This document shows positions 5,603 to 18,359 of a stretch of DNA of 64,000 nt, in pieces. The position numbers were made by a program, and so were the translations under genes. A model generated the notes under the pieces. That model saw nothing but the letters and a program-made list of their open reading frames with translations, searched no databases and had not been told where the DNA came from. Every line of letters begins with the position of its first letter. The first letter of the stretch is position 1. Source of the DNA: Agrobacterium vaccinii (GTDB lineage: Bacteria > Pseudomonadota > Alphaproteobacteria > Rhizobiales > Rhizobiaceae); assembly GCF_021310995.1 (NCBI RefSeq), contig NZ_CP054150.1, forward strand, positions 2,480,001 to 2,544,000. Reading direction: 5' to 3'.

Positions 5603-7363
5603 CTACGCCTTGATCAGATCGAGATGCAGCACGCGCGGCGACAGGACCTGAAGAATGGTCTCAGAGCGGCCAATATAGACAATCGCGGTATCGGTCATGC
5701 CAGCCAGCACGGCAGACAGCGTATCGACCGTTTCTTTCTCCAGCCCTTCCAGGAGGTCGTCGATAAATAGCCAGCGCGGTTTCAGCAAAACAGCATTGGC
5801 CACCCGAACGCAGGCTTGCTCGTCGGAATCAAACTTCTTGTCCCAGCGAATATTGTCGTCCATGCGCGGGATGATGTGGCCGAGACCGCATTGCTGCATG
5901 GCATCCAGAAAATCCTGTTCCTTGAACTTCTGCGGGCTGCGCGGATAGCACAGAATCTCACGCAAGGGGGCTGCCGGTAAATATCCGTGCTGTGCGATGA
6001 ATAGCGTTTCCTCTCGCGGCGGCATGGAAATGGTGCCGCGCCCCCAAGGCCACAGCCCGGCAATGGCGGCAAAGAACAGGCGACGGTTGACGCCCTGGTC
6101 GCCGTTGACCATCAGCCGGTCTCCGACATTGATCTCCACCGGCGCCTCGCGCAGACGGAACACACGCGACATATCCTGCCCGCCAACCTCAGGGCATATC
6201 TCGACGGATGTCAGCCGGATCGAACCGGTCGTGGTCCGTTCGATGTCGATGGCGTTGCCGTGGCGCTCCACGCTGTCCATCTGGATCAGGGCATTGCGGA
6301 AAACAGAGACGCGCTGCAAATTGGCTTTCCACGCAGCGATCGGGCCGAAATTGTCGATGTACCAGCGCAGTGCCACATTGACCTGATTGAAGGCGCCCAC
6401 CGCCATCATCAGCCCGCCGAAGCTTAAATGCCCGGAGAAGTAAACCGGGGCAGCGATCAGAATGGGAGCAACGATGGCAAGCCAGCCGTAGCCTGACGAT
6501 ACCCACGTCAGATGCGTCAGCGCCATGGCAAGGCCACGAATGACGACCAGAACAGCGTTGATGTCTTCACCGATGCGATGACGCTCGTTCTTTTCGCCGC
6601 GCGCCAGCGTAATCGCCGTCAGGTTTTCGCTGGCCCGCATCAGGGAAAAGCGTAGCTCCGCTTCCTTGGAATAGCGCTCCGCATTCAGCGGCACCAGCCG
6701 GTAACCGACAAGGTTGCTCAGCAGCGATGCCGAGCCCGCATAAATCAGTGCCGCCCAGACCATATAGCCCGGTATTTCAACCATCTTGCCGCTGATCTCT
6801 ATGGCAAAACCGGCAGACAGACCCCAGAGAACACCGATGAAGCTGACCAACAGAATGGTGGCGTTGACGAGGCCGATGGCCAGGGCCGTGCTGCTTTCAG
6901 CAAGGTTGCGCACATCGTCATGCAGGCGCTGGTCCGGGTTGACGGCAATGGCACCGAAGCCGGAAAGCCTTGCGGCCCGGCCCGGCTTAAACCACTGGTC
7001 GACCATGTCTTTCGCCAGGCCCTCGCGCATGTTCAGCGCCGTCATCTGGTTCAGCCAGGTCTGAAAGACGTTGAGAAGCAGCAGCGAGCCTGCAATCATC
7101 GCAAACACCTGAAGCTGGTGCAGAAACGAGTTCAGATCGCGCCGTTCCAGCGCGTTGTAGAAAGGTGCGTTCCACTCGTTCAGCTTGACCTGCCCATAGG
7201 CGGTGACAAGGATGATGGTCAGCAGCGCACACATCAGCGCAATCAGCCTGCCCCGGACGGGAGACGTCCAGAACGCACTACCCATCATCTTCAATTGAGA
7301 CCTGAAATCCAGATCGAATGACGGGTGGCCGGTTGTCTCCGTGGACAGATTACCTTGCGCCAT
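5603..7363 (-). CDS. SbmA/BacA-like ABC transporter with degenerate ATPase domain
   Basis: The 586-residue protein has the ABC_membrane_2 layout: a membrane domain of about six helices (residues 40-345) with the family stretch NEWNAPFYNALERRD at 62-76, then a nucleotide-binding-like domain from about 380. Where YddA/SbmA-type relatives carry GxSGxGKS, this one reads GDQGVNRRLF (421-430), so the Walker A Lys and Ser are gone. The signature is FDSDEQ (511-516) rather than LSxGEQ, and Walker B is LFIDD with Asp where the catalytic Glu belongs. The fold landmarks AIAGLWPWGRG and YLPAAPLREILCYP remain. It probably cannot hydrolyse ATP normally; it may act like the proton-driven SbmA/BacA peptide importers. 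AAGG precedes the ATG. Confidence 0.82.
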   Translation of the reverse strand: MAQGNLSTETTGHPSFDLDFRSQLKMMGSAFWTSPVRGRLIALMCALLTIILVTAYGQVKLNEWNAPFYNALERRDLNSFLHQLQVFAMIAGSLLLLNVFQTWLNQMTALNMREGLAKDMVDQWFKPGRAARLSGFGAIAVNPDQRLHDDVRNLAESSTALAIGLVNATILLVSFIGVLWGLSAGFAIEISGKMVEIPGYMVWAALIYAGSASLLSNLVGYRLVPLNAERYSKEAELRFSLMRASENLTAITLARGEKNERHRIGEDINAVLVVIRGLAMALTHLTWVSSGYGWLAIVAPILIAAPVYFSGHLSFGGLMMAVGAFNQVNVALRWYIDNFGPIAAWKANLQRVSVFRNALIQMDSVERHGNAIDIERTTTGSIRLTSVEICPEVGGQDMSRVFRLREAPVEINVGDRLMVNGDQGVNRRLFFAAIAGLWPWGRGTISMPPREETLFIAQHGYLPAAPLREILCYPRSPQKFKEQDFLDAMQQCGLGHIIPRMDDNIRWDKKFDSDEQACVRVANAVLLKPRWLFIDDLLEGLEKETVDTLSAVLAGMTDTAIVYIGRSETILQVLSPRVLHLDLIKA

Positions 7364-7619
7364 CAGTACCTTGCCATTTCCATAATGATTCGAATTCCAG
7401 CAGTTCTACAGGCGTCGACTATAGGTGCGTGTCGTGACAGCAATAGCATGACGCGGGGGCTTGTCTACGTCCCACGCACGGCCTGGACCAAGACGGTCTG
7501 CAGCAATGCCACCCGGCACTGAAATGTTCCTTGCTTTATTTGCGTGCATTGCACAAAGTCCAAGCAATCAAGAGGGGCGGACAATCCGCGCAAACCGGAA
7601 AAACCGGGCAAGGGCAAGT

Positions 7620-10600
7620 ATGTCAATCAAAGCAAGCATCTATCATCTGACGCATTATAAATATGACAGTCCGATTCGCCTCGGACCGCAGATCATCAGA
7701 TTGAAGCCTGCGCCGCATTCTCGTACCCACGTCATCAGCCACTCGCTCAAGGTCTCCCCCGCCAATCACTTCGTCAATTTACAACAGGACCCTTACGGCA
7801 ATTTTCTGGCGCGTTACGTCTTTCCTGATCCGGTAACGGAATTCCGCATCGAGGTCGATCTTGTCGCGGATATGACGGTCTATAATCCCTTCGACTTTTT
7901 CGTGGAGGAAAGCGCCACCTACTGGCCTTTTGAATATCCCGAAACGTTGAAGGCCGACCTGTCGATCTACCAGACACCAGAGCCGACGGGCCCGCTTCTG
8001 GAAAACTACCTGAAAACCCTCGACTGGACGGCGGGCCAACCCACCGTGGATATGGTCGTCGGTCTCAATGCCCGGCTGCAAAGCGAAATCGGCTATGTCA
8101 TCCGCATGGAAACCGGTGTGCAGACGCCCGAGGAAACGCTGGGAACCGCCAAGGGCTCGTGCCGCGACACGAGCTGGCTGCTGGTGCAAATCCTGCGCCA
8201 TCTCGGCTTTGCCGCCCGCTTCGTGTCTGGTTATCTCATTCAATTGACACCGGATTTGAAGGCGCTGGACGGCCCCTCGGGAACCGAGGTGGACTTCACC
8301 GATCTTCACGCCTGGGCGGAAGTCTATCTTCCCGGCGCGGGTTGGGTCGGGCTTGACCCGACCTCGGGCCTGCTGACCGGCGAAAGCCATGTGCCGCTGG
8401 CCGCAACCCCGCATTTCAGCAATGCCGCCCCCATTTCCGGCGGCTATTATGGCCAGGCCAACACCGAATTCGCCTTCGATATGAAGGTCACCCGCGTGGC
8501 CGAACATCCGCGCATCACCAAGCCCTTTTCGGACGAAAGCTGGGACCGCCTGAACGCCTTGGGCGAAGAGGTTGACAAGGTTCTGGCGCAACAGGATGTG
8601 CGCCTCACCATGGGCGGCGAGCCTACCTTTGTTTCGATCGATGATTTCGAATCGGGCGAATGGAACACAGACGCGGTTGGACCGACCAAGCGGGAAAAGG
8701 CCGATGTGCTGATCCGCAAGCTGCGCGAGCGCTTCGCCCCCAACGGCTTCCTGCATTACGGTCAGGGCAAGTGGTACCCCGGCGAAAGCCTGCCTCGCTG
8801 GACGTTTTCGCTCTATTGGCGCAAGGACGGCCAGTCCGTCTGGCACAATCCCGATCTGGTCGCCCGCGAAGGTGCCGATACCGGTGTCACCTCGGAAGAT
8901 GCCGAAAAGCTTCTGACCAACATCGCCGCCAATATCGGCATCGCCCCGGAACTGGTGCTGCCGGCTTACGAAGACCCGGCGGAATGGCTGATCAAGGAAG
9001 GCAACCTGCCTGACAATGTCGATCCATCCAATTCCAAGCTGAAGGACCCGGAAGAGCGCAACCGCATCGCCCGCGTGTTCGAGCGCGGCCTGACGACGCC
9101 GACTGGCTACATTCTGCCTGTGCAGGCTTGGAATGCTAAGGCGACATCCGAAAAGCGCTGGATGAGTGAGAAGTGGAAGACCCGGCGCGGCCGCATCTTC
9201 CTCGTTCCCGGTGATAGCCCGGTTGGCTACCGCATTCCGCTCGGCACCCTACCCCACGTGCCGCCATCGAAATTCCCCTATATCCATCCGGCCGATCCAT
9301 CGGTGACCCGTGGCCCTCTGCCGGATGCCGTGGCACCCACCGAACGCGTTCTGCCGGAAGCTTCGTTTCAGGCCTCGGAAGGGGCAACGCAGGAGCGCAT
9401 CGAGCAATCGATCAGCGATATCAACGGCGAAGTCCGCACCGCTTTGTCGGTGGAAGCGCGCGATGGACGTCTGTGCGTCTTCATGCCGCCGGTGGAAGAG
9501 ATCGAGGACTATCTCGATCTCGTCGCCGCCGCTGAAAAAGCCGCGACCGATCTTGGCCTTCCCGTCCACATTGAGGGCTATACCCCGCCGCATGACGAGC
9601 GCATGAACGTCATCCGCGTCGCGCCCGATCCCGGTGTTATCGAAGTCAACATCCACCCGGCGGCCAGCTGGAAGGATTGCGTCGACATCACCACTGCCGT
9701 GTATGAAGACGCACGTCAGACACGGCTGGGTGCGGATAAATTCATGATCGACGGTCGCCACACCGGCACCGGCGGCGGCAACCATGTGGTGGTGGGCGGT
9801 GCCAACCCCAATGACAGCCCGTTCCTGCGCCGTCCCGACCTGTTGAAGAGCCTCGTGCTGCACTGGCAGCGTCACCCCTCGCTGTCCTATCTCTTCTCCG
9901 GCCTGTTCATCGGCCCGACAAGCCAGGCACCGCGCATCGATGAAGCCCGTCATGACAGCATGTACGAGCTGGAAATCGCCATGGCGCAGGTGCCTATGCC
10001 GGGCAACGGCGAAGCACCGCCGCTGCCATGGCTGGTCGACCGCCTGTTCCGCAATCTGCTGACGGATGTCACCGGCAACACCCACCGCTCCGAGATTTGC
10101 ATCGACAAGCTGTTCTCCCCGGATGGCCCGACGGGTCGCTTGGGCCTAGTGGAATTCCGTGGCTTCGAAATGCCGCCGAATGCCCGCATGTCGCTGGCCC
10201 AGCAATTGCTGGTGCGTGCCATCATCGCCCGCTTCTGGAAGAACCCTGTCGGCGGAAAATTCGTGCGCTGGGGAACGGCGCTGGCCGACCGTTTCATGCT
10301 GCCGCATTACATCTGGGCGGATTTCCTCGATGTTCTCGCAGACCTGAAGGAAAACGGCTTCGACGTGAAACCGGAATGGTTTGCCGCCCAGCTGGAGTTT
10401 CGCTTCCCCTTCTTCGGCGAAGTCGAATATGAAGGCTCGAAGCTCGAACTGCGTCAGGCGCTGGAGCCATGGCATGTCATGGGCGAACAGGGTGCCATCG
10501 GCGGCACCGTGCGGTATGTGGACAGCTCCGTGGAGCGTTTGCAGGTGCGGCTGGAAACCTCCAACCCGTCGCGTTACACGGTGGCCTGCAACGGTCGCGC

Positions 10601-10952
10601 CGTGCCACTGAAGCAGACGGAAAACTCGGGCGTCTCGGTCGCTGGTGTGCGCTTCAAGGCATGGCAGCCCTCGCAGGGTCTTCACCCGGCCTTGCCGGTC
10701 AACACACCGCTAACCTTCGATATATATGATACATGGTCGAACAGATCGATCGGTGGCTGCATCTATCATGTTGCCCATCCGGGCGGACGCACCTATGAGA
10801 CGTTCCCCATCAACGGAAACGAAGCGGAAGCCAGAAGGCTTGCCCGTTTCGAGCCCTGGGGGCACACTGCCGGCCAATATACGTTGTGGCCGGAAGCTGC
10901 GTCGCCGGAATTCCCGCTGACGCTTGATTTGAGACGCCCGCAGGGAGTGTGA
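7620..10952 (+). CDS. Transglutaminase-like protein fused to putative amidoligase domain (DUF2126)
   Basis: A large cytoplasmic protein of 1110 residues. Residues 1-90 form the N-terminal beta domain found before bacterial transglutaminases ([19 protein letters not shown]). The papain-like core follows with Cys181 in [10 protein letters not shown], His230 in DLHAWAEVY and Asp246 in GLDPTSG, so the catalytic triad is intact. From about residue 330 to the end runs the DUF2126 region, listed as a putative amidoligase, with [19 protein letters not shown] and the His/Gly-rich [17 protein letters not shown]. The ATG at 7620 is preferred over an upstream frame start at 7461 because the family begins here. 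First gene of a three-gene operon; one base separates it from the next. Confidence 0.88.
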
Positions 10953-10953
10953 C

Positions 10954-13362
10954 TTGGCAAAGGCACCGGCAATGGAACGGACAAATGATAAACCCGGCAT
11001 GGCCTCCATGCTGGATTATCGTTCCATGCCCGGAATTGCTGATGAAATGCTGGATATCAATGGTCGCATCCGCCCCGTCTGGCAGCCTTTCGTCAACGCG
11101 CTTTCCCGCATGGAAGAGCGCGAATTGCATGAGCGCTTTGCCCGCACCGACCGTTACCTGCGCGACGCCGGCGTGTTTTACCGCGATTACAGCGCGCAGG
11201 GAAACACCGAGCGCAACTGGCCGATTTCCCATATTCCCGTCCTGATCGACGACAAGGAATGGGAAGCGGTCTCCCACGGGCTCATTCAGCGCGCCAATCT
11301 GCTGGAGAGCATCGTTGCGGATTTTTACGGTGAAAACCGGCTGGTCCAACAGGGTTACGTGCCGCCGTCGCTGCTTGCCTCCAACCCGGAATATCTGCGT
11401 CCGCTCGTGGGCGTGAAACCGGCGGATGGCCACTATCTGCATTTCTGTTCGTTCGAAATAGGACGCGGGCCTGATGGTCACTGGTGGGTGCTGGCAGACC
11501 GCACGCAGGCACCATCGGGCGCGGGCTTTGCGCTGGAAAACCGCGTCGCCACCACCCGCGCCTTTTCCGATATCTACGCCGAATCCCATGTCCACCGCCT
11601 CGCCTCCTTCTTCGGCGCGTTTCGCGATACGCTGCAATCTCACCGCCAGCACCCGGATGACCGCATCGCGGTTCTAACGCCCGGCCCCGCCAGCGAAACC
11701 TATTTCGAACACGCCTATATCGCCCGCTATCTCGGCTTCATGCTGCTGGAAGGTGAAGACCTCACCGTCGTCAACAACCGCGTCATGGTCCGCACCGTGG
11801 CCGGTTTAAAGCCTATCGGCGTGTTGTGGCGGCGCCTCGATGCCTCCTATACCGACCCGCTGGAGCTGGACCAGAACTCCCATATCGGCACGCCCGGCAT
11901 GGTGCAGGCGCTGCGCTCCGGCTCGCTCAGCATGGTCAATGCGCTGGGGTCCGGCATTCTCGAAACCCGTGCGCTGCTCGCCTTCATGCCCGCCATCTGC
12001 CGCCATCTGCTGGGCGAAGATTTGGCAATGCCGTCCATCGCCACATGGTGGTGCGGCCAGCCGTCCGAGCGCGAACATGTTGCGCGCAATATCGAACGCA
12101 TGGTCATCGGCCCGGCCTATTCGCGCCTGCCCTTCTTCGATGATAACGGCCAGTCGGTTCTCGGTTCTTCGCTGCGCGAAACGGCCAAGGATTCTATCGG
12201 TGACTGGCTGGCAAGCGACGGCCACAAGCTCGTCGGCCAGGAAGTCGTCACGCTGTCCACAACCCCCGCTTTTGTCGATGGCAAACTGGTGCCCCGCCCT
12301 ATGAGCTTGCGCGTCTTCGCGGCCCGTACGCAGGATGGCTGGCAGGTCATGCCCGGTGGCTTTGCCCGCATCGGCCGCAGCAACGATACCGCGGCCATCG
12401 CCATGCAGGCAGGCGGCAGTGCTGCCGATGTCTGGATCGTCTCCGACAAGCCGGTGGAACGCACCACGCTTTTGCCAGCGGAAGAAAACTTCATCCGCAA
12501 CATGCCCGGCAGCCTGCCGAGCCGCGCCGCCGATAATCTCTTCTGGCTGGGCCGTTATATCGAGCGCGCAGAAGGGGCGTTACGCATCCTGCGCGCATGG
12601 CACGCTCGCTATGCTGAATCCGCCGATCCGAAGCAGCCGCTTCTGGCCCACGTCACCGAATACCTCGAAACCGTGGATATTGACGTAGAGGAAGCCGTTC
12701 CCGCAAGCCTCATCGCCAATCTCAACAGCGCCATTTATTCCGCCAGCAATATCAGAGACCGTTTCTCACCCGATGGCTGGCTGGCGCTGAACGATCTGGC
12801 CAAAACCGCCCGCCGCTTCCAGAGCAAGGTGGCCGCGGGTGATGACGCCACCCACGCCATGACGGTTCTCTTGCGCAAGCTGGCGGGCTTTGCCGGTTTG
12901 GTGCATGAAAACATGTACCGCTTCACCGGCTGGCGGTTCCTGTCCATCGGTCGTTATCTGGAACGCGGCCTGCATCTCACCCGTCTTCTGGGCCATATGA
13001 GCGGGCCGGATGCGCCTGACGGTTCCCATGACATGCTGCTCGAAATCGGCGACAGCGTCATGACCCATCGCCGCCGCTACAACGTCAACACGGCAGCACT
13101 GACGGTAATGGACCTGCTTGGCCTCGATCCGCTCAACCCGCGCTCCATTCTGTTCCAACTCAACGAAATCCGCACCGAGGTGGAGCAGCTGCCCAATGCT
13201 TTCGTCAACGGGCAGATGTCGCCCTTCTACCGCGAGGTCATGCGCGTCCATTCCGGCCTTGCCGTGATGACGCCAGAAAACCTGTCGCCCGCCGTCTTCC
13301 GGCAATTGGAGCAGGATCTCGAACATCTCTCGGACCTTCTCGCCCAGACATATCTCGGATAA
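10954..13362 (+). CDS. Circularly permuted ATP-grasp protein fused to alpha-E domain
   Basis: The 802-residue product starts with TTG at 10954, with GGGAG six bases upstream, directly after the previous stop; an ATG at 10972 is the alternative. Residues about 60-480 match circularly permuted ATP-grasp ligases (FYRDYSAQGNTERNWPISHIP; VLTPGPASETYFEHAYIARYLG; IGVLWRRLD; NALGSGILETRALLAFMP). Residues about 512-802 are the helical alpha-E domain, opening with RAADNLFWLGRYIERAEGA. Comparative-genomics work on ATP-grasp amidoligases predicted that this pair, with transglutaminases, makes and processes unknown peptides or modifies proteins. No substrate peptide gene is visible nearby. Confidence 0.9.
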   Translation: MAKAPAMERTNDKPGMASMLDYRSMPGIADEMLDINGRIRPVWQPFVNALSRMEERELHERFARTDRYLRDAGVFYRDYSAQGNTERNWPISHIPVLIDDKEWEAVSHGLIQRANLLESIVADFYGENRLVQQGYVPPSLLASNPEYLRPLVGVKPADGHYLHFCSFEIGRGPDGHWWVLADRTQAPSGAGFALENRVATTRAFSDIYAESHVHRLASFFGAFRDTLQSHRQHPDDRIAVLTPGPASETYFEHAYIARYLGFMLLEGEDLTVVNNRVMVRTVAGLKPIGVLWRRLDASYTDPLELDQNSHIGTPGMVQALRSGSLSMVNALGSGILETRALLAFMPAICRHLLGEDLAMPSIATWWCGQPSEREHVARNIERMVIGPAYSRLPFFDDNGQSVLGSSLRETAKDSIGDWLASDGHKLVGQEVVTLSTTPAFVDGKLVPRPMSLRVFAARTQDGWQVMPGGFARIGRSNDTAAIAMQAGGSAADVWIVSDKPVERTTLLPAEENFIRNMPGSLPSRAADNLFWLGRYIERAEGALRILRAWHARYAESADPKQPLLAHVTEYLETVDIDVEEAVPASLIANLNSAIYSASNIRDRFSPDGWLALNDLAKTARRFQSKVAAGDDATHAMTVLLRKLAGFAGLVHENMYRFTGWRFLSIGRYLERGLHLTRLLGHMSGPDAPDGSHDMLLEIGDSVMTHRRRYNVNTAALTVMDLLGLDPLNPRSILFQLNEIRTEVEQLPNAFVNGQMSPFYREVMRVHSGLAVMTPENLSPAVFRQLEQDLEHLSDLLAQTYLG

Positions 13363-13365
13363 GCC

Positions 13366-14247
13366 ATGCTCTACGATCTGACGCTGCACATGGGCTATAT
13401 CTACGATACGCTGGCATCCGGCGCGCGCCACATCATCCGCATCATGCCGCTGTCCATCCCCGGTCGGCAAAGGCTGATCGCAGGCACGCTCAGCGTTTCC
13501 CCCTCCCCGGATGAGCGCACCGTCTTCAATGATTTTTTCCAGCAAAGCGCTACGTCCGTTTTCCTGCGCGCCTCCCACGACAAGCTGGATATCCGCATGC
13601 AGGCTCGCGTGTCCGTGGAGAGCCCGTCTCTGACGGCAGATTTCTCGCCGCAACTTGCGAGACTGCCCGCCGAACTGGCCAGCGTCTGGTCGCTCGATCC
13701 ACAGTCACCGCATCATCTGGCAGGCATCAGCCCGCGCATCGGTGAGAACGCAGCCATTGCGGCCTACGCCCGCGAAACGATCCAGCCCGGCATGACCATC
13801 CGCGAAATCGCGATGGCGCTGTGCAAGCGCATCTACAAGGACTTCAAATATGATGGCGAAGCGACCACGGTAGACACCACACCGGCGGAAGCCTTCAAGC
13901 TAAAACGCGGCGTTTGCCAGGATTTCTCGCATATCATGATTTCGGCACTGCGCAGCCTCGGCATTCCTGCCGGTTACGTCAGCGGCTTCCTGCGCACCAT
14001 ACCGCCAGCGGGCAAGGAACGGCTGGAAGGTGCAGACGCCATGCATGCCTGGGTGCGCGTCTGGTGTGGAGAGGCGACGGGTTACATCGAACTCGACCCG
14101 ACCAATGACATCGTCGCTGGCAGCGACCACATCGTAGTCGGCTACGGTCGAGATTACGCCGATATCGCCCCCGTTATCGGCGTGCTGAAAAGCTACGGCA
14201 ACCAGCAGACCACGCAGGCCGTCGACGTCATTCCCGTCAAGCATTGA
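13366..14247 (+). CDS. Transglutaminase-like cysteine protease family protein
   Basis: A 293-residue protein starting three bases after the ATP-grasp stop. An N-terminal beta domain (about 1-90) is followed by the transglutaminase core with Cys184 in RGVCQDFSHIM, His227 in DAMHAWVRV and Asp244 in ELDPTND, a complete triad. Bacterial members act as peptidases or as amide-bond-forming or -exchanging enzymes. With the upstream transglutaminase/DUF2126 protein it gives the operon two related thiol enzymes, perhaps one to trim and one to join or release products made by the ATP-grasp ligase. That division of labour is inference. Confidence 0.9.
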   Translation: MLYDLTLHMGYIYDTLASGARHIIRIMPLSIPGRQRLIAGTLSVSPSPDERTVFNDFFQQSATSVFLRASHDKLDIRMQARVSVESPSLTADFSPQLARLPAELASVWSLDPQSPHHLAGISPRIGENAAIAAYARETIQPGMTIREIAMALCKRIYKDFKYDGEATTVDTTPAEAFKLKRGVCQDFSHIMISALRSLGIPAGYVSGFLRTIPPAGKERLEGADAMHAWVRVWCGEATGYIELDPTNDIVAGSDHIVVGYGRDYADIAPVIGVLKSYGNQQTTQAVDVIPVKH

Positions 14248-14415
14248 AGCTGCACCAAAATGGAACGAAACCCGTGTCGCAACGGCACAGAGCCTCGTTT
14301 CACGACAAAAACCTGTCCCGTTTCCAGCACTCGATAAATTTACTCACGTTACGTTAGGAAAATCTACATCGCCTGTAGGTAGTGGTGATTCCATACGATA
14401 ATCGAACGGGCGGAC

Positions 14416-15669
14416 ATGATGTTCAATGGGGCCGGAATGACGAAACGGGTGCGCGCACTGCTGACAGACAGACAGGGCAATTTTGCCATGATGACGGCGC
14501 TGACGCTGCCTTTGCTGATGGGTTTTGCGGGCGCTGGTCTTGAACTGACCAAGGCCCTGCAGGTCAAATCCGATCTCCAGAACGCAGCCGATTCGGGCAC
14601 GCTTGCTGCCGCCACCAAGTTTCGTGAGACCGAGGGCAAGTTGAGCGACGACCAGCTCAAGGCAGAAGTGAAACAATTCCTCGGTGCGACGGATTTCGCA
14701 AAGGAACTGAAGCCTGCCGACAAGCAAGAGCTGGACGAGAACATCAACTCGGTCGCTTCCCGGTTCAAGACATCCAAGGGCGATGGCTTCCGCATCGCCA
14801 CCACCGTCAGCTACAAAATGCCGCTGAACCCGCTGCTGAGCTTCATCGGCGCCAAAACGCTGACACTCAGCGCCACCAGCACGTCCGAAAGCAGCTTCAA
14901 CAACGGCTCGCCGCTATCGATGTATCTTGTCCTGGACCGCTCCGGCTCAATGTCCTTCAAGACCGATACGATCGACAAAAGCAAAAGCTCCTGTCAGAAT
15001 TTCACGGTGGAGAACTGGACCTCGAAACCCTCGACGGTTAAAGCCTCGAGCCCGTGTTACGTGGCAAAGAGCACCTCGCTAAAAACCGCCGTCAACTATC
15101 TGGTGGCGACCCTCAACACATCCGATATCACCTACAAGGCGAGCGGATCACCTGAATCGACCTTTGTCCGCACCGGCGCAATCGCCTATAACGACAAAAG
15201 CTTTGCCGGGCAGGATATCGACTGGGGAACGCAAAAGGCCAATGCCTATGTGCAAGCCATCCCGCTCGTCCCGGAAGGCGGAACCAATGCGGACGCCGCG
15301 CTCATTACCGCCTTCAACGCACTGAAAAGTACCAACACCAAAGAAAGTGACGAGCACAAGAAGAAAGGCAATCTTTCGTTCAAGCGATACATTGTTTTGA
15401 TGACGGATGGTGAAATGACCGGATCGAGCAACAGCTGGAACGCGGCGGTGGATGCTTCAGTGCGCGCCACCTGCGCCAAAGCGAAGGCCGACGATATCGA
15501 CATCTTCACCGTCGCCTTCATGGCGCCGCCCAAGGGCAAATCGCTTCTCCAGGCCTGCGCCACCAGCGCGGACAACTATTACGCGCCGGAAAATATGGAA
15601 GAAATCGTTGCTGCCTTTGGTGATATCGCCCGAAAAGCCTCTGGAAATGTCAGCCGCCTGACCAACTGA
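14416..15669 (+). CDS. TadE/TadG-like pilus-assembly protein with VWA domain
   Basis: The 417-residue protein opens with a basic stretch, then the Tad motif RQGNFAMMTALTLPLLMGF, a hydrophobic segment anchoring it in the inner membrane (about residues 28-45). ELTKALQVKSDLQNAADSGTLAAA follows in style with TadG proteins. From about residue 172 runs a von Willebrand A domain: MIDAS motif DRSGSMS, then a Cys-containing insertion, and a later VLMTDGEMTGSSN. Such proteins are secreted or envelope-anchored parts of tight-adherence pilus systems. No other tad genes are in the window, so this is an orphan copy. An ATG at 14437 is an alternative start. Confidence 0.82.
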   Translation: MMFNGAGMTKRVRALLTDRQGNFAMMTALTLPLLMGFAGAGLELTKALQVKSDLQNAADSGTLAAATKFRETEGKLSDDQLKAEVKQFLGATDFAKELKPADKQELDENINSVASRFKTSKGDGFRIATTVSYKMPLNPLLSFIGAKTLTLSATSTSESSFNNGSPLSMYLVLDRSGSMSFKTDTIDKSKSSCQNFTVENWTSKPSTVKASSPCYVAKSTSLKTAVNYLVATLNTSDITYKASGSPESTFVRTGAIAYNDKSFAGQDIDWGTQKANAYVQAIPLVPEGGTNADAALITAFNALKSTNTKESDEHKKKGNLSFKRYIVLMTDGEMTGSSNSWNAAVDASVRATCAKAKADDIDIFTVAFMAPPKGKSLLQACATSADNYYAPENMEEIVAAFGDIARKASGNVSRLTN

Positions 15670-15692
15670 AATCCTTAACGCCTATTTGATAG

Positions 15693-15726
15693 ACCACGGA
15701 AACCACATCGGTTTTCGTGGTTTTTT
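15693..15726 (+). terminator. Intrinsic terminator after the VWA gene
   Basis: A 12-bp stem (ACCACGGAAACC pairing with GGTTTTCGTGGT, one G-T pair) closes a five-base loop and is followed by six T residues. It lies 24 bases after the VWA stop and isolates it from glgP. Confidence 0.9.
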
Positions 15727-15842
15727 GTTATTTTCACATCATGTCCATAACCCTGTCATATCTCTCTAAGTCATTCACGTTTCCGACAAAACGGCTGTTG
15801 CCACGGCCCGATATCGGTGCATAAATCACTGGTATAACTGGC

Positions 15843-18359
15843 ATGCCGGATCGACAGAATCAGACACTCTCCTCCCAACAAGGTGCTGACCGACCAATGA
15901 TCAATAAACTCGTCACCAACGATCTTCCTCGTCCCGCCCCGCGTAGTTCGGAACCAGAAGTTCTCGCTTCCGAAATCATCGAGCGACTGACCTACCGCAT
16001 CGGCAAGGACGTCAAGGTTGCCAAGCCGCACGACTGGCTGACCGCCACCATTCTGGTCATCAGAGACCGCGTCATCGACAAGTGGATGGAATCTACCCGC
16101 AAAGCCTATCAGCACGACAGCAAGCGCGTTTATTATCTGTCGCTGGAATTCCTCATCGGTCGCCTGATGCGCGATGCCATCTCCAACCTTGGCCTGATGG
16201 GCGAAATCAAGGATGCGCTGACATCGCTGGGTGTCGAGTTCGACGTCATTGCCGGTCTGGAGCCGGATGCCGCCCTTGGTAATGGCGGCCTTGGCCGTCT
16301 CGCTGCCTGTTTCATGGAATCCATGGCGACCGTCGATATCCCGGCCTATGGCTACGGCATCCGTTACGTGCACGGCCTGTTCCGCCAGCAGATGGCCGAC
16401 GGCTGGCAGGTGGAACTGCCCGAGACATGGCTTGCACACGGCAACCCCTGGGAATTCGAGCGTCGTGAAAGCTCCTACGAAATCGGTTACGGCGGTTCCG
16501 TCGAGACCGTCGGCGGCTATGAAGAGCCGCAGCGCTTCGTCTGGAAGCCTGCCGAGCGCGTCATCGCCACCGCCTTCGACACGCCGGTCGTCGGCTGGCG
16601 CGGCACCCGCGTCAACACGCTGCGCCTCTGGTCTGCCCAGCCGATCGACCCGATTCTGCTTGACGCCTTCAATGCGGGCGACCACATCGGTGCTCTCAGA
16701 GAAAGCAACAAGGCCGAGGCCCTGACCCGCGTTCTCTACCCTGCGGATGCCAATCCTGCCGGTCAGGAGCTGCGTCTGCGCCAGGAATATTTCTTCTCGT
16801 CGGCCTCGCTTCAGGACATTCTGCGCCGCCACTTGCAGCAATATCCCGACCTGACCAATCTGCCGGAAAAGGTCTCCATCCAGCTCAACGACACGCATCC
16901 GGCCATTTCCATCGCCGAATTGATGCGCCTTCTGTGCGATATTCACGGCATGGAATTCGAAGAGGCCTGGACACTGACGCGCGGCACCTTCTCCTACACC
17001 AACCACACGCTTCTGCCCGAAGCGCTGGAAAGCTGGCCAGTGCCGCTGCTGGAACGCCTGCTGCCACGTCACATGCAGATCATCTACGCGATCAATGCCA
17101 ACACCCTTCTGGTTGCCCGCAAGGAACAGACGATGAGCGACCAGCAGGTCCGCTCCATTTCGCTGATCGAAGAAGGCGGAGAACGCCGGGTGCGCATGGG
17201 CAACCTCGCCTTCATCGGCTCGCATTCCATCAACGGCGTGTCGGCGCTTCACACAGAGCTCATGAAGGTCACGGTGTTTTCCGACCTGCACAAGCTCTAC
17301 CCGGACCGCATCAACAACAAGACCAACGGCATCACCCCACGCCGCTGGCTTATGCAGTGCAATCCGGGCCTGACGGACCTCATCCGCCAGTCCATCGGCG
17401 ACGAATTCCTTGACGATGCCGAAAAGCTCGCAGCACTCGACCGTTTTGCCGAAGACAAGGGCTTTCGCGAAAAGTTTGCCGAAATCAAGCGGCAGAACAA
17501 GGCGCGCCTTGCCAATGTCGTGGCACAGCGCATGGGCATCCGCCTCGATCCATCCGCTATGTTCGATATTCAGATCAAGCGCATCCACGAATATAAGCGC
17601 CAGCTTCTGAACCTCGTCGAAGCCGTTGCTCTTTATGATCAAATCCGCTCACGCCCGGAACTGGATTGGGTGCCACGCGTTAAGTTCTTCGCTGGCAAAG
17701 CAGCACCGAGTTATCACAACGCCAAGCTGATCATAAAGCTCGCCAATGATATCGCGCGTGTCATCAATAACGATCCGGCGGTGCGGGGTCTTCTGAAAGT
17801 GGTTTTCATTCCAAATTATAACGTGTCCCTTGCCGAAATCATGGTTCCGGCTGCTGACCTGTCAGAGCAGATTTCGACGGCTGGCATGGAAGCATCCGGC
17901 ACCGGCAACATGAAATTCGGTCTGAACGGCGCGCTGACCATCGGCACGCTCGACGGTGCCAATGTCGAAATGCTTGAGCATGTCGGCAAGGACAATATCG
18001 TCATTTTCGGCAAGACCGCAGAAGAGGTTTCGCAGGCACGCTCGGAAGGTCACGATCCGCGCGCCATCATCGAAAATTCCGCTGAACTGTCGCAGGCGCT
18101 GTCATCCATCGCCTCTGGCGTCTTCTCGCCTGATGACCGGTCCCGTTTTTCGGAACTGATGGACGGCATCTATAACAATGACTGGTTCATGGTCGCCGCC
18201 GATTTCGACGCTTACGCCCAGGCACAGCGTGATGTCGACGCAATCTGGAGCGATCCTTCGAGCTGGTACGAAAAAACCGTACGCAATACGGCACGCATGG
18301 GCTGGTTCTCGTCCGACCGGACGATCCGGCAATATGCAACCGAAATCTGGAGGGCCTGA
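15843..18359 (+). CDS. glgP: Glycogen phosphorylase
   Basis: The 838-residue protein follows the family from YYLSLEFLIGRLMRDA (about residue 98) through NDTHPAISIAELMRLL and TNGITPRRWL to the pyridoxal-phosphate site EASGTGNMKFGLNGALTIGT near residue 680, where the Lys in NMKF binds the cofactor. It phosphorolyses glycogen to glucose-1-phosphate in the cytoplasm. The start at 15843 is the first in frame; an ATG at 15897 gives 820 residues, nearer to typical size, but neither has a strong ribosome site. The stop overlaps glgB's ATG (TGATG), so both are translated from one operon. Confidence 0.95.
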   Translation: MPDRQNQTLSSQQGADRPMINKLVTNDLPRPAPRSSEPEVLASEIIERLTYRIGKDVKVAKPHDWLTATILVIRDRVIDKWMESTRKAYQHDSKRVYYLSLEFLIGRLMRDAISNLGLMGEIKDALTSLGVEFDVIAGLEPDAALGNGGLGRLAACFMESMATVDIPAYGYGIRYVHGLFRQQMADGWQVELPETWLAHGNPWEFERRESSYEIGYGGSVETVGGYEEPQRFVWKPAERVIATAFDTPVVGWRGTRVNTLRLWSAQPIDPILLDAFNAGDHIGALRESNKAEALTRVLYPADANPAGQELRLRQEYFFSSASLQDILRRHLQQYPDLTNLPEKVSIQLNDTHPAISIAELMRLLCDIHGMEFEEAWTLTRGTFSYTNHTLLPEALESWPVPLLERLLPRHMQIIYAINANTLLVARKEQTMSDQQVRSISLIEEGGERRVRMGNLAFIGSHSINGVSALHTELMKVTVFSDLHKLYPDRINNKTNGITPRRWLMQCNPGLTDLIRQSIGDEFLDDAEKLAALDRFAEDKGFREKFAEIKRQNKARLANVVAQRMGIRLDPSAMFDIQIKRIHEYKRQLLNLVEAVALYDQIRSRPELDWVPRVKFFAGKAAPSYHNAKLIIKLANDIARVINNDPAVRGLLKVVFIPNYNVSLAEIMVPAADLSEQISTAGMEASGTGNMKFGLNGALTIGTLDGANVEMLEHVGKDNIVIFGKTAEEVSQARSEGHDPRAIIENSAELSQALSSIASGVFSPDDRSRFSELMDGIYNNDWFMVAADFDAYAQAQRDVDAIWSDPSSWYEKTVRNTARMGWFSSDRTIRQYATEIWRA

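Follow-up and report, generated by a model that had tools for sequence, protein, structure and literature searches.

The window analysed here, a stretch of 64,000 nucleotides from Agrobacterium vaccinii (positions 2480001–2544000 of contig 1; genome 4.87 Mb, three contigs), carries on its forward strand three consecutive genes, denoted A, B and C. Gene A (7620..10952, ATG start) encodes a transglutaminase-like N-terminal region (residues 6–83) and core (141–247) fused to the putative amidoligase domain DUF2126 (279–1105); its open frame begins upstream at a TTG (7461), and we take the gene from the ATG at 7620. Gene B (10954..13362, TTG start) fuses a circularly permuted ATP-grasp fold (residues 95–473) to an alpha-E domain (521–801), and gene C (13366..14247) encodes a stand-alone transglutaminase-like protein. 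The tight packing described in an earlier note on this DNA, with gaps of 1 base (A-B) and 3 bases (B-C), is confirmed by the coordinates, and the gene identities and fusions that it gave are borne out by Pfam matches above cut-off: Bact_transglu_N, Transglut_core and DUF2126 (1334 bits) in A, CP_ATPgrasp_2 (459 bits) and Alpha-E (203 bits) in B, and Transglut_core and Bact_transglu_N in C. None of the three proteins had an NCBIfam match at E 0.001. The named proteins closest to that of gene A belong to Agrobacterium, Rhizobium and Neorhizobium.

The structure model of B has the complete circularly permuted, glutathione-synthetase-like ATP-grasp fold. In ATP-grasp enzymes a lysine and a glycine-rich loop serve ATP, and the E-x-N motif provides Mg ligands. 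Alignment places A181-D182-R183 of B (11494..11502) at the E-x-N site, with both the E and the N lost, and finds the region of the lysine and glycine-rich loop (residues about 386–400, 12109..12153) unconserved; both E-R pairs of the alpha-E domain (12514..13356) are retained. Fused B proteins (n = 44) keep 0–2 of nine ATP-grasp positions, and the E-x-N asparagine is present in 0/44 of them versus 36/36 solo ATP-grasps, the split form found in Anbu-type operons. The E-x-N motif, lysine and glycine loop are missing in nearly all sampled B proteins, which comprise Pseudomonadota and, beyond that phylum, two plasmid examples only, one from Acidobacteriota (3 of the 9 positions retained) and one from Actinomycetota. 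Motifs on the nucleotide side (K, Gly loop, D, N, K) have either gone or vary, with no fixed substitute at the loop. B nevertheless evolves under purifying selection (low ratio of nonsynonymous to synonymous substitution, dN/dS), and in a tree the fused and solo ATP-grasps form two sides, each fully supported. By alignment, B thus appears to be a maintained, conserved pseudo-ligase that has lost its ATP site. Because B is without the residues for ATP use, the working ATP-grasp is probably encoded elsewhere in the genome.

The earlier note had described all triads as intact and had counted two ligase-type domains in the cluster. The thiol triads of A and C are indeed kept, and the model of DUF2126 has a ligase-type fold, but the ATP-grasp of B has, by alignment, lost its ATP-binding residues, a loss that the note itself had named as grounds for refutation, and would not be an active ligase. 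The transglutaminase triad of A (C181, H230 and D246, 8160..8357) is conserved among homologues at 51/52, 52/52 and 51/52, and the Cys, His and Asp of C are each found in 44/44. These triads place A and C in the transglutaminase-like superfamily, with predicted transglutaminase or peptidase activity. The DUF2126 domain (8454..10934), a putative ATP-dependent carboxylate-amine ligase, has the fold of the glutamine-synthetase/GCS superfamily in its structure model; this fold claim rests on comparison with a second aligner, Foldseek by itself giving weak matches (E about 0.007). Six candidate active-site residues (E334, E675, H722, R823, E845 and R847) are invariant in 34/34 homologues, and their putative roles are assigned from order and spacing. 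The architecture of A, which joins a transglutaminase-like domain and a carboxylate-amine ligase domain in one protein, has been in print since 2008 (Iyer et al., PMC2588565), which supports the link to published comparative genomics made in the earlier note. In one relative (L078 8526-11058) the DUF2126 gene is broken across two frames, and its B and C are open.

DUF2126 occurs in 77/151 genomes of the family and in 84/299 Pseudomonadota genomes, two samples that overlap in some genomes. At 40 loci, hand-picked from the DUF2126 matches in both samples, A, B and C lie on one strand in 35; two others (L058, L060) have B and C beside an A on the other strand, and three (L047, L061, L076) have no B or C nearby. 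Among 80 named loci, the best 80 of 594 relatives with more beyond those, and nearly all Alphaproteobacteria by title, 76 extend at least 2.6 kb past A; B is present in 72/76 and C in 71/71 testable. The median gaps there, measured to the aligned start, are about 10 bases (A-B) and about 4 bases (B-C). The arrangement exceeds chance. The system is real, widespread and already predicted; within its family, the operon in the window is nothing unusual. One of the loci lacking B and C holds a divergent DUF2126 (L061 8009-11036, 32–35% identity) separate from its transglutaminase gene, with neighbours that by eye resemble glycoside hydrolases and a MATE-like exporter.

About 238 kb from the window operon, the same genome carries an intact operon of solo ATP-grasp, alpha-E and transglutaminase (L084, with the ATP-grasp at 8746-10170), in which Anbu is absent. 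In the phylum sample, CP_ATPgrasp_2 is found in 84/84 genomes with DUF2126, at two or more copies in 79/84; among genomes without DUF2126 (n = 215), 77 have at least one copy and 10 at least two. The family sample gives a similar picture, with CP_ATPgrasp_2 in 77/77 DUF2126 genomes (at least two copies in 74/77) versus 49/74 and 1/74 without DUF2126. Related genomes in these counts are not independent. In some genomes the two halves are contiguous. Locus L196 and Burkholderia cenocepacia (L216) have a six-gene run on one strand of solo ATP-grasp, alpha-E, transglutaminase, A, B and C, and in a blood isolate of Enterobacter roggenkampii an IncFII plasmid (L213 1159-10350) carries solo ATP-grasp and alpha-E followed by A, B and C in one run. 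At four further loci (L190, L191, L195, L197) both halves adjoin in mixed orientation. The triad of the solo-operon transglutaminase is present in 19/19 homologues at each position. Two side observations concern these loci: an IS26 transposase lies about 5 kb from the run on the plasmid, and a 1448-residue protein of very similar short repeats is encoded directly downstream of the solo operon (L084 12697-17043).

We propose, with a probability of about one half, an amide-ligase system in two parts: A, B and C would form the second, and the solo ATP-grasp/alpha-E/transglutaminase operon would provide the active ATP-grasp in trans. DUF2126 of A would most likely activate a carboxylate with ATP and couple it to an amine, and the transglutaminase-like cysteine domain of the same protein could split or exchange such an amide. 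B, a pseudo-ATP-grasp with alpha-E, would probably be a non-catalytic binding or assembly subunit, and C a further cysteine enzyme of the same family as the transglutaminase-like domain of A. More tentatively, such a machine might join two unrelated amide-ligase folds, the glutamine-synthetase type of A beside the ATP-grasp type represented by an active sister protein and an ATP-stripped adaptor, B (three phyla sampled), with B either a pseudo-ligase subunit or the seat of new chemistry around its conserved arginine; we regard this as less likely than not.

Under nitrogen limitation the system may have a part in storing or recycling nitrogen or in tagging. In B. cenocepacia H111 the NtrC-dependent genes include I35_5080-5083, which the passage concerned annotates as DUF404/DUF407, DUF403, transglutaminase-like and "large protein containing transglutaminase-like domain" (PMC5491218); judged by gene order in L216, the large protein would be that of gene A. 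PP_2686-2688 of Pseudomonas putida, of which PP_2687 and PP_2688 are probably the alpha-E and ATP-grasp genes, are reported as induced under nitrogen limitation 11–15 fold in the wild type, 17–37 fold in a relA/spoT mutant and 14–20 fold in an rpoN mutant, and the proteasome-beta-like PP_2685 by 1.1, 4.8 and 1.5 fold in these strains (PMC7801951). In marine metagenomes these domains are described as correlating with urea metabolism (PMC3597751). The Anbu structure paper, in its remarks on expression, gives the operon genes as unchanged in various conditions and Anbu as raised in nitrogen-limited P. putida (PMC5666114).

Several observations weigh against this proposal. B and C occur without A alongside in Sinorhizobium meliloti Ak57 (L214 7001-10302) and Tsukamurella (L215 5995-9377), and four loci (L187, L188, L189, L192) have A with Anbu, fused B being absent; A and B are therefore not obligate partners, and an adaptor role of B specifically for A is at most tentative. 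Compared as profiles, DUF2126 and GCS2 showed no match. In the literature searched, the sole activity reported for a protein of this system is phosphate release from ATP by a solo ATP-grasp (PMC6376114), and the Anbu pull-downs in Yersinia bercovieri described there gave no specific interaction with proteins of its operon. As to nitrogen, B and C do not appear among the NtrC-dependent genes in the B. cenocepacia passage (PMC5491218), NtrB/NtrC is named as a putative regulator of the P. putida genes (PMC7801951), and the persistence of the P. putida induction in the rpoN mutant speaks against strict sigma-54 control. No sigma-54-like site was found before gene A; across the whole window, on both strands, the sigma-54 pattern has 19 matches versus 15.6 expected.

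The earlier note saw in the operon a complete make-and-trim route, in which A and B would both be active ligases, A and C would both be thiol enzymes, and together they would make and trim a peptide. Operon packing, domain content and the full glutathione-synthetase-like fold of B are consistent with it, but the E-x-N, lysine and glycine loop are gone from B in nearly all sampled homologues and the intact ATP-grasp sits in a second operon, so we consider this account highly improbable. B could instead be repurposed rather than dead, its fold handling a nucleotide or metal by a new mechanism centred on the arginine that replaces the asparagine. R183 is invariant in 37 aligned B proteins, arginine stands there in 42/44 of the larger set, the 37 share 46 invariant columns, and dN/dS is low; set against this, the nucleotide-side residues are lost or variable and the loop has acquired no fixed alternative, which makes repurposing unlikely.

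A cycle of protein tagging, with the ligases adding a tag (an amino acid or peptide) to proteins and either Anbu or the transglutaminase-like enzymes removing it, seems rather doubtful. A tagging idea is published for the Anbu operon (PMC6376114, in the passage concerned). Of the 50 genomes that have both Anbu and DUF2126, places were compared in 20, and in 15 of these the two are within 1 kb of each other. The source genome has HslV and no Anbu was found in it, and no conserved small tag-like open reading frame was seen nearby. A conserved small substrate peptide, proposed in the earlier note as something to look for, was not seen within 1.5 kb either side of the loci, although a gene elsewhere is possible. 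The largest groups of small open reading frames cover at most 12/118 upstream and 15/106 downstream loci and look like shadows of larger genes; the authors of PMC2588565 likewise, in the passage on such genes, report no Pup-like small open reading frame near them. Separately, we considered DUF2126 as a replacement for Anbu and rejected it: when the comparison is confined to genomes that have CP_ATPgrasp_2, 50/84 of those with DUF2126 carry Anbu, as do 50/77 of those without (p = 0.52).

Among known systems, A shares its architecture with Rv2566-type proteins, Rv2566 itself being from Mycobacterium tuberculosis. No Pup-like small open reading frame was seen within 1.5 kb of the loci examined here, and none is reported for Rv2566-type genes; the passage describing them is silent on a counterpart of B (PMC2588565). 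The Anbu operon, as outlined in PMC5666114 and PMC6376114 (solo ATP-grasp, alpha-E, transglutaminase and Anbu), has the same three domain families as the window operon, whereas in the window the ATP-grasp and alpha-E are fused, the ATP-grasp residues are lost, DUF2126 is added and Anbu is missing. PDB 3n6x, a solo-type ATP-grasp of Methylobacillus flagellatus, retains by alignment the E-x-N, K and Gly-loop motifs, unlike B; a solo profile run against PDB returned 3n6x and three chance-level matches, with no glutathionylspermidine synthetase. Glutathione and glutathionylspermidine synthetases, YgiC and Cp1B are described as active ligases, the acyl-phosphate residues of Cp1B having been tested by mutation (PMC12568646, relevant passages), and B is without their E-x-N pair. 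RloABC of Pseudomonas aeruginosa resembles the window operon in encoding an ATP-grasp protein with a catalytically dead partner, though there it is the transglutaminase that is called inactive and the families differ from those of the window (PMC12239564).

New, as far as the literature searched shows, are an ATP-grasp in B that is disarmed yet maintained and an intact ATP-grasp in the partner operon. A limited search found no report of an inactive ATP-grasp and no characterisation of B, though earlier literature may already state its inactivity; the literature searched names no product for DUF2126 systems. Assaying B as the ligase would mean testing a protein without the usual ATP site. The question becomes testable once the catalysts are sought in the solo ATP-grasp and DUF2126, B is treated as a subunit and cells are grown under nitrogen limitation.

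No sigma-70-like promoter was found in 7200-14600. Downstream of C (14416-18359) lie a gene for a TadG-like von Willebrand protein and a gene that by eye is glycogen-phosphorylase-like (named so in L214); TadG-like and GlgP have 15 and 16 matches in the flanks of the 80 named loci, and we know of no functional tie of either to the operon. On the opposite strand, facing the operon, is an SbmA/BacA-like ABC transporter gene (5603-7363). Flanking genes were rejected as parts of the system, since N-formylglutamate amidohydrolase-like, HisN-like and SbmA/BacA-like genes have 1, 0 and 2 matches in those same flanks; all three neighbours are retained in one near relative (L062).
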